A DNA stretch of 21,044 nucleotides from positions 1 through 21,044 of IMG/VR virus record IMGVR_UViG_3300033553_000150. The stretch is one strand, 5' to 3'. The notes under the pieces are model-generated. The model saw only the letters and a list, made by a program, of their open reading frames with translations. It had not been told where the DNA came from and searched no databases. Position 1 is the stretch's first letter. Every line of letters starts with the position of its first letter. The translations under genes were made by a program, and so were the position numbers. Of this stretch, positions 18,111-18,617 are shown piece after piece. Source of the DNA: a virus.

Positions 18111-18617
18111 ATGAATCTGACAGAGGCAATCAAGGCAGTAGCGCCGCACATGAGCAAAGACAGCACCCTGCCCGCACTAGCGGGGGTCCAGGTACGTAAC
18201 GGCAAGGTGGTCGCTACCGACTGGTACACGCTGGCAATGGTGGACGTAGAGGGCCTAGACACGGACGTGGAGGTGTGGCTCAGCGCGGAGGACGTAAAGG
18301 CTAAGCCGGTGTTTGTGACCAATGAGACGATCACGTTCGACAATGGCTCTGCGAAGCAGGTCTCAGAACCCCGCGCAGAGTTCCCGGCAATTGAGAAGAT
18401 CGTGGACAACTTCACGCCTAACGACGGGACCACGCCGGTCACCTCGTTTAGTGTGGATATCGCGTACATGGGCAAGTTTGCAAGCAAGTTCTTCCCCCGC
18501 TCCCCGGGCCACCCGCGTTTCGAGTTTGGCGCTGACGTGACCAAGCCCCTGCGCGTTACTATCGCGGGGTTGCCAGAGTACGTCGGTATGATCGTCCCTG
18601 TCCGGACGGGCGTCTGA
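18111..18617 (+). CDS. Short sliding-clamp-like protein (DnaN-like)
   Basis: The 168-residue product resembles parts of the bacterial beta clamp, which holds the polymerase on DNA. Residues 3-45 (LTEAIKAVAPHMSKDSTLP, then GVQVRNGKVVATDWYTLA) match the start of a clamp domain with its 'TLPxLxGVxV...G.xxATD' pattern. RAEFPAIEKIV (88-98) matches the Phe/Tyr-Pro block that closes a clamp half, and the end KPLRVTIAGLPEYVGMIVPV (145-164) followed by Arg matches the C-terminal strand ending in MPxR. Full beta clamps have about 370 residues in three domains, so this is less than half. It may be a minimal ring-forming clamp or a truncated regulator of the host clamp. The assignment is by pattern and needs a profile search. 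Confidence 0.65.
   Translation: MNLTEAIKAVAPHMSKDSTLPALAGVQVRNGKVVATDWYTLAMVDVEGLDTDVEVWLSAEDVKAKPVFVTNETITFDNGSAKQVSEPRAEFPAIEKIVDNFTPNDGTTPVTSFSVDIAYMGKFASKFFPRSPGHPRFEFGADVTKPLRVTIAGLPEYVGMIVPVRTGV

Follow-up and report, generated by a model that had tools for sequence, protein, structure and literature searches.

The bacterial beta clamp, DnaN (TIGR00663; DNA_pol3_beta, DNA_pol3_beta_2, and DNA_pol3_beta_3 in Pfam), has about 366 residues in six half-domains. PCNA and T4 gp45 are trimers of two-domain chains, with four half-domains per chain. Sliding clamps are taken to act as closed rings. Phages also encode short clamps, and GenBank and UniProt entries already label some of them sliding clamp or DNA polymerase III beta. 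These include Gordonia Jace gp60 (241 amino acids), Nettuno gp43 (246), Microbacterium Lesiram gp58 (255), and Arthrobacter Popper gp54 (291). In the literature that we searched, we found no description of the half-domain make-up of the short clamps, of a partition between pocket and ring, or of a short clamp fused to FtsK.

Here we describe P0001, a protein of 168 residues that is encoded in a virus record of 21,044 bases. (We will call this whole stretch of DNA the window.) P0001 resembles DnaN in the predicted fold of domain II and IIIb (the second half of domain III, whose first half is IIIa), in the position of the peptide pocket, and in its FP and MPxR blocks. Unlike DnaN, it appears to have no domain I, no IIIa, and no dimer interface, and it is under half of the usual size, as an initial annotation of the window had stated. 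P0001 shares its half-domain order and its pocket blocks with the four actinophage clamps listed above and with phrog_12598.

A reduced relative of the beta clamp

The initial annotation had proposed a sliding-clamp-like gene here, and its location was borne out: the open reading frame runs on the forward strand from an ATG at 18111 to a TGA at 18615-18617 (Table 1). The gene is tightly packed, with the upstream stop codon at 18106-18108 and the next ATG at 18619, and it sits within a row of small, close-set rightward genes. Its GC3 of 0.76 resembles that of the window's coding genes.

Table 1. Positions in the window of the P0001 gene, its predicted half-domains, and its putative pocket blocks
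Feature	Position	Strand	Basis
Reduced beta-clamp homologue gene, P0001	18111..18617	+	Open reading frame; PHROG and NCBIfam matches; leave-one-out profile; AlphaFold2
Half-domain 1 (residues 1-52), predicted DnaN IIa, without the first beta strand of relatives	18111..18266	+	HMM, model, VIA
Half-domain 2 (residues 53-102), predicted DnaN IIb plus FP connector	18267..18416	+	Model; profile-profile match
Half-domain 3 (residues 103-168), predicted DnaN IIIb by structure	18417..18614	+	VIA, also for L053
Putative pocket block 1: L20, L23, T36, W38, Y39, T40, L41 (E. coli R152, L155, T172, G174-L177)	18168..18233	+	DnaN alignment; list excerpted from PMC11139829
Putative pocket block 2, within the FP motif: P92, K96, I97 (E. 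coli P242, R246, V247)	18381..18401	+	DnaN alignment; list excerpted from PMC11139829
Putative pocket block 3, C-terminal strand: M160, V162, P163, V164, R165 (E. coli V360, M362-R365)	18579..18605	+	DnaN alignment; list excerpted from PMC11139829

P0001 is a real relative of DnaN. It matches phrog_12598 (E = 2e-11) and phrog_947, "DNA polymerase processivity factor" (E = 1.1e-10). It also hits TIGR00663 (dnaN) with E = 0.0011 and 18 bits, which is under the equivalog cut-off of 137.65 bits, and there is a weak hit to DNA_pol3_beta_2 (E = 0.11). A profile of 28 relatives that was built without P0001 scored it at 67.0 bits, versus at most 7.8 bits for 2,000 shuffled sequences, although the relatives had first been recruited with a nine-seed profile that had P0001 among the seeds. 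The match covers positions 11-199 of the profile's 201 and is interrupted once, at the second helix; it is full-length and follows the half-domain order of the phrog_12598-type short phage clamps. The initial annotation had suggested a profile search against clamp families, and this search found a match rather than coming back empty.

When we compared the family profile to PDB, we found beta clamps (E = 1.2e-14), with the match on DnaN domain II. Profile-profile comparison of the family with DnaN domain II gave E = 2.3e-6, in line with the assignment of half-domain 2. Half-domain 3 as a profile by itself did not find DnaN in PDB, in Pfam, or with hhalign, where the partner was a DnaN alignment of just two sequences, which makes for a weak test. 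Searches of IMG/VR and of genome contigs with peptide patterns turned up no close relatives of P0001. The sole tblastn match at E up to 1 among 50,697 phage records (E = 0.5) was to an unrelated coil protein.

Three landmarks that had been read from the sequence hold up as well. Residues 3-47 correspond to the start of DnaN domain II, EFPAIEKI is the FP block that lies behind domain II, and YVGMIVPVR corresponds to the C-terminal strand of DnaN.

AlphaFold2, given an alignment of 20 sequences, predicted a confident clamp fold for the P0001 monomer (pLDDT 90.0, pTM 0.86), rather than an unrelated fold. The 50 Foldseek matches in PDB that were listed are all DnaN (best E = 1.4e-6). So are the 50 VIA alignments listed, in which 156-161 residues superpose with an rmsd of 2.5-3.0 Å and Z of 13-15; PCNA and gp45, with four half-domains per chain instead of three, are not among these 50, though matches to other clamps may lie beyond them. 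VIA aligned residues 1..166 of the model to residues 133..366 of E. coli DnaN. This range spans 234 residues of DnaN, of which about 75 are skipped; the sole long unmatched piece is IIIa, a placement that we infer, as VIA reports just the first and last aligned residues.

We also modeled one relative, L053 (pLDDT 87.2). Its model aligns to E. coli DnaN 124..366 over 182-187 residues (2.0-2.8 Å, Z of 16.6-19.7). That L053 superposes on DnaN indicates that the geometry of the pocket between II and IIIb is kept in its model.

According to these models, the core of P0001 is IIa-IIb-IIIb, or three of DnaN's six half-domains, and domain I and IIIa are absent. In half-domain 1, which VIA aligns from DnaN residue 133, the model has a helix at 3-13 and strands at 25-29, 32-36, and 40-45. 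In half-domain 2, it has strands at 54-58, 66-69, 73-76, and 81-83, and the helix is cut to 59-63. That the last piece is IIIb is indicated by structure in both models and by the motif at the C-terminus: residue 166 of P0001 falls at the end of the aligned range of DnaN, and the end of L053 falls there likewise.

The three beta-alpha-beta units of the initial annotation are recognizable in both models and in the structure alignment, but they are not complete. P0001 is missing the first strand of its relatives (residues 2-7 of L053), helix 2 has 5 residues versus 14 in L053, and helix 3 has 7 versus 14. The first strand of half-domain 3 is partnerless in the model, with single bridge residues at 103 and 114 only. 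The net charge of P0001 is -5, and its three helix segments sum to +1.

Short clamps in other phages

The initial annotation treated P0001 as a single oddity, which it is not: short phage clamps are a widespread and partly annotated group. The three-half-domain core is common to at least 24 non-redundant phage proteins, some of which are annotated as sliding clamps, while others are mislabeled as "FtsK-like" or "RusA-like." BFVD adds two short viral clamps by fold match: a 266-residue protein from Rhodococcus phage REQ2 (E = 1.1e-10) and a 173-residue protein from Podoviridae ctdDI2 (E = 1.3e-6). The latter bears the annotation "DNA polymerase III subunit beta," and both were compared to P0001 by fold match only.

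Weak tblastn matches (E up to 10) to annotated clamps of Gordonia, Rhodococcus, and Microbacterium phages served only as leads for building the profile. Most of the relatives were supplied by a codon-biased pattern for TDR[YF]T, so the set is biased towards high-GC phages with that motif. Further scans with other family members yielded little. Of the 29 stretches found with the pattern, several were set aside: by eye, L028 and L037 are terminase-like, L038 is portal-like, and L030, L043, L045, and L047 are short frames rather than clamps. L052 and L055 had no clamp ORF by the profile. TDR[YF] is frequent in the family, but it is not defining, and its frequency is inflated since some of the relatives were found by that motif; in P0001, the TD is present and the R is replaced by W38.

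P0001 is one of the leanest short phage clamps. It is shorter than the actinophage clamps, whose core has 184-256 residues in 28 relatives, and unlike them it has neither the first strand nor most of helix 2, it has W38 instead of R, and it has no C-terminal tail. Where its first helix ends, P0001 has H13, and 21 of 24 short clamps have a histidine there (mostly as Pro-His); this histidine is missing from E. coli DnaN.

What lies behind the core varies: some relatives have an FtsK-gamma domain, several IMG/VR members continue for about 150 residues that look helical, and others have little or nothing. FtsK-gamma was found by motif match in 3 of the 24 relatives, and by Pfam (FtsK_gamma) in the proteins from Dogfish, RayTheFireFly, and MagicMan. 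Three proteins from Mycobacterium and Gordonia phages, namely Purky gp55 (L025:634-1707), Babsiella gp50 (L060:637-1701), and MagicMan gp54 (L018), are annotated as "FtsK-like DNA translocase." Given that they combine the three-half-domain clamp core with an FtsK-gamma winged helix, they are probably not translocases. (Two plasmid matches labeled "FtsK" that we examined as possible fusions are long genes that are annotated as DNA translocase FtsK, so the plasmid matches were not counted.)

The RusA label is also questionable. Of 20 clamp cores, 19 match phrog_12598, and both phrog_12598 and phrog_3007 are labeled "RusA-like Holliday junction resolvase." We rejected the identification of phrog_12598 as a RusA resolvase because its members have the clamp core. 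The label looks wrong, and perhaps it was taken from a neighboring gene. This suggests that many phage genes annotated as "FtsK-like DNA translocase" or "RusA-like resolvase" are relatives of the clamp.

In named phages, the neighbors of the short clamps are frequently genes for recombination or other DNA functions, and they include an exonuclease and a DNA-binding protein (in Lesiram), a ParB-like nuclease (in Gordonia phages), and RecT and RusA (in Purky and Babsiella). Neither DNA polymerase A (PF00476) nor the alpha subunit of DNA polymerase III (PF07733) was found in any of 21 records with such clamps, several of which are fragments; the profile identifies the clamp core in at least 19 of the 21, and in one (Purky) the match is weaker. 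DnaN above the cut-off was found in 0 of 15 records with short clamps.

The terminase of the P0001 phage is about 28-40% identical to its best-listed matches, which are from phages of Clavibacter, Arthrobacter, Microbacterium, and Curtobacterium and are distant kin. These similarities suggest that the host is probably an actinobacterium. From 242 records, we chose 10 of the terminase kin (Clavibacter phages CN1A and CMP1, Arthrobacter phage Amigo, and others), and none of the 10 has a short clamp, which implies that the gene comes and goes.

The peptide pocket and the ring-closing parts

For the beta clamp, the review PMC11139829 lists 18 residues for the peptide pocket, 13 for the dimer interface (I78, F106, I272, L273, and nine charged residues), and 6 DNA contacts from the closed clamp-loader complex. 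With limits that we set by hand from the alignments, the segments of E. coli DnaN that are retained in P0001 are 124-250 and 312-366. Of the residues in those lists, these segments contain 18/18 for the pocket, 0/13 for the dimer interface, and 1/6 for DNA contacts.

Seven of the 18 pocket residues are identical in P0001 and E. coli (L23, T36, L41, P92, Y119, P163, and R165), and several more, including K96, I97, M160, V162, and V164, are conservative changes. R152 and H175 of E. coli are replaced by L20 and Y39. Also, W38 takes the place of an R that is present in 27 of 28 relatives, while the family-conserved T36, D37, P92, and P163 are present. Among 24 non-redundant relatives, the mean entropy of the 18 pocket columns is 1.13, as compared to 1.97 for the 135 other columns (permutation p = 1.4e-4). 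A reasonable reading of these alignments is that the pocket columns are under selection, and ancestry, anchoring of the alignment, and the motif used to find the relatives could contribute to their conservation.

Since the pocket positions are complete and the ring-closing parts are absent, we propose that P0001 is a reduced clamp that acts off the ring: a pocket module that would engage clamp-binding motifs and serve as a decoy or an adaptor. We give this proposal a probability of about one half. P0001 would act as a monomer or a small oligomer, and its pocket would grip QLxLF-type motifs of replication or repair proteins from the host or the phage. As a decoy, it would compete with the host's DnaN, for instance for the delta subunit of the clamp loader or for the polymerase. 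As an adaptor, it would bring a clamp-binding protein to the phage's DNA. The winged-helix DNA-binding tail (FtsK-gamma) of some relatives fits an adaptor, and P0001, which has no tail, fits a decoy better; the present data do not separate the two.

A decoy or inhibitor of the host clamp was one of two possibilities raised in the initial annotation. The circumstantial evidence leans that way because all 13 residues of the dimer interface and 5 of the 6 DNA contacts are lost, two of the helices that line the channel are short, and the net charge is negative. We have widened the idea to a pocket module, with the binding itself as a prediction. The records with short clamps, in which neither of the two polymerases nor DnaN above the cut-off was found, are in keeping with this.

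There are partial precedents. As reported in PMC11139829, a monomeric variant of E. coli beta has about 50-fold higher affinity for delta than the dimer has, and it cannot tether Pol III. By analogy, a stable monomeric piece of a clamp could titrate clamp-binding proteins. The same source's account of Gp168 from Staphylococcus phage Twort shows a phage protein that interferes with the clamp, as we propose for P0001, but Gp168 binds the clamp's DNA channel while P0001 is itself a clamp homologue. The phage clamps Waterfoul gp48 (376 amino acids) and Adephagia gp35 are reported to inhibit Mycobacterium smegmatis when overexpressed. We view this as a precedent for toxicity rather than as evidence about P0001.

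Some observations count against a pocket module. The low identity of the pocket to that of E. coli and the replacement of the family's arginine by W38 are two of these, and the sole relative that we modeled, L053, retains full-length helices. The DNA-associated neighbors or tails of several relatives speak for work on DNA and against simple titration. The lack of clamp-binding motifs in the 37 ORFs of the window counts against a pocket module too.

The other possibility in the initial annotation was a small chain that closes a ring as a tetramer. Four chains of three half-domains would form a two-fold symmetric ring of twelve that moves along DNA and keeps a polymerase attached, with half-domain 3 of each chain paired with half-domain 3 of its neighbor in place of the missing IIIa. 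In clamp rings, adjacent half-domains alternate between contacts within a domain and contacts between domains, so the chains of such a ring must be arranged head-to-head and tail-to-tail. If we take the order in the ring to be IIIb-IIa-IIb, then the half-domains that P0001 keeps are contiguous. In the model, half-domain 3 has a free edge at its unpaired first strand, which might be used for the pairing, and the helices of L053 are long. Also, PMC4858162 describes viral and eukaryotic clamps as trimers with two clamp motifs per chain and bacterial clamps as dimers with three, which makes twelve half-domains in either case. But the loss of the interface residues and DNA contacts, helices 2 and 3 of just 5 and 7 residues, and a helix charge of just +1 in a protein of -5 argue against a sliding ring, and so does the lack of DNA polymerase A or III alpha in the 21 records with such clamps. 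We consider a closed ring of P0001 to be doubtful. It is unlikely that the short clamps as a group are a fourth clamp build, that is, a D2 ring of four chains and twelve units in which both faces would be identical and every chain would carry a pocket.

P0001 could hold a phage polymerase on DNA without any ring, as a monomer or as a C-shaped dimer. UL42 and UL44 of herpesviruses are ring-less processivity factors, and some of the terminase kin carry their own polymerase (Amigo has a DNA polymerase I). Non-ring processivity factors are basic, however, and P0001 has no basic excess. Moreover, the absence of short clamps from all 10 of the terminase kin implies that such a clamp is not a constant component of their replisome. 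Authors writing on Adephagia and Waterfoul suppose that the clamps of those phages serve phage replication, and the Waterfoul protein is full size. Overall, an open processivity factor seems rather unlikely.

Finally, the missing strand, the shortened helices, and W38 would be expected if P0001 were a decaying remnant, or if the clamp scaffold had acquired an unrelated function and the pocket had fallen out of use. The intact reading frame, the coding composition, and the tight row of genes argue against this, as do the confident fold and the retention of T36, D37, P92, and P163. We consider decay or a new function quite improbable.

If P0001 is a pocket module, then it may naturally compete with the host clamp at the peptide pocket, which is the site that griselimycin-type antibiotics use, and the host's replication machinery may be competed for or diverted. 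A group of clamps that keep the pocket without the ring would test which functions of sliding clamps need a ring.

Other features of the window

We searched the 37 ORFs of the window for clamp-binding motifs and found none, with 0.62 expected from shuffled sequences. Phage replication genes were not seen in the window, which is a fragment of the genome. Its last 34 bases (21011-21044) resemble a transposon-library adapter, CTGTCTCTTATACACATCTGACGCTGCCGACGA, which we presume to be a sequencing-library adapter; hence the last ORF does not end naturally, and the genome breaks off at this point.

The opposite arm of the window has leftward genes for the head (capsid, protease, portal, and terminase) along with tRNA genes. 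Between the leftward and rightward arms, at 13294-13519, there is an array of CTTTACC/CTTTACYTT motifs, with several copies 22 or 11 bases apart. Six of the seven copies of CTTTACYTT in the window are in this array, and 0.16 would be expected in the whole window. By its sequence, the array looks like iterons or operators, and perhaps it is an origin.

The leftward gene at 7735-8262 encodes a protein that matches "peptidase HslV family" (phrog_1040, E = 1.1e-23) and has no match in Pfam at a threshold of 0.01. The tRNA genes are at 21-559, also leftward: Rfam identifies five and ARAGORN identifies four, and the one at 97-167 is found by Rfam only.
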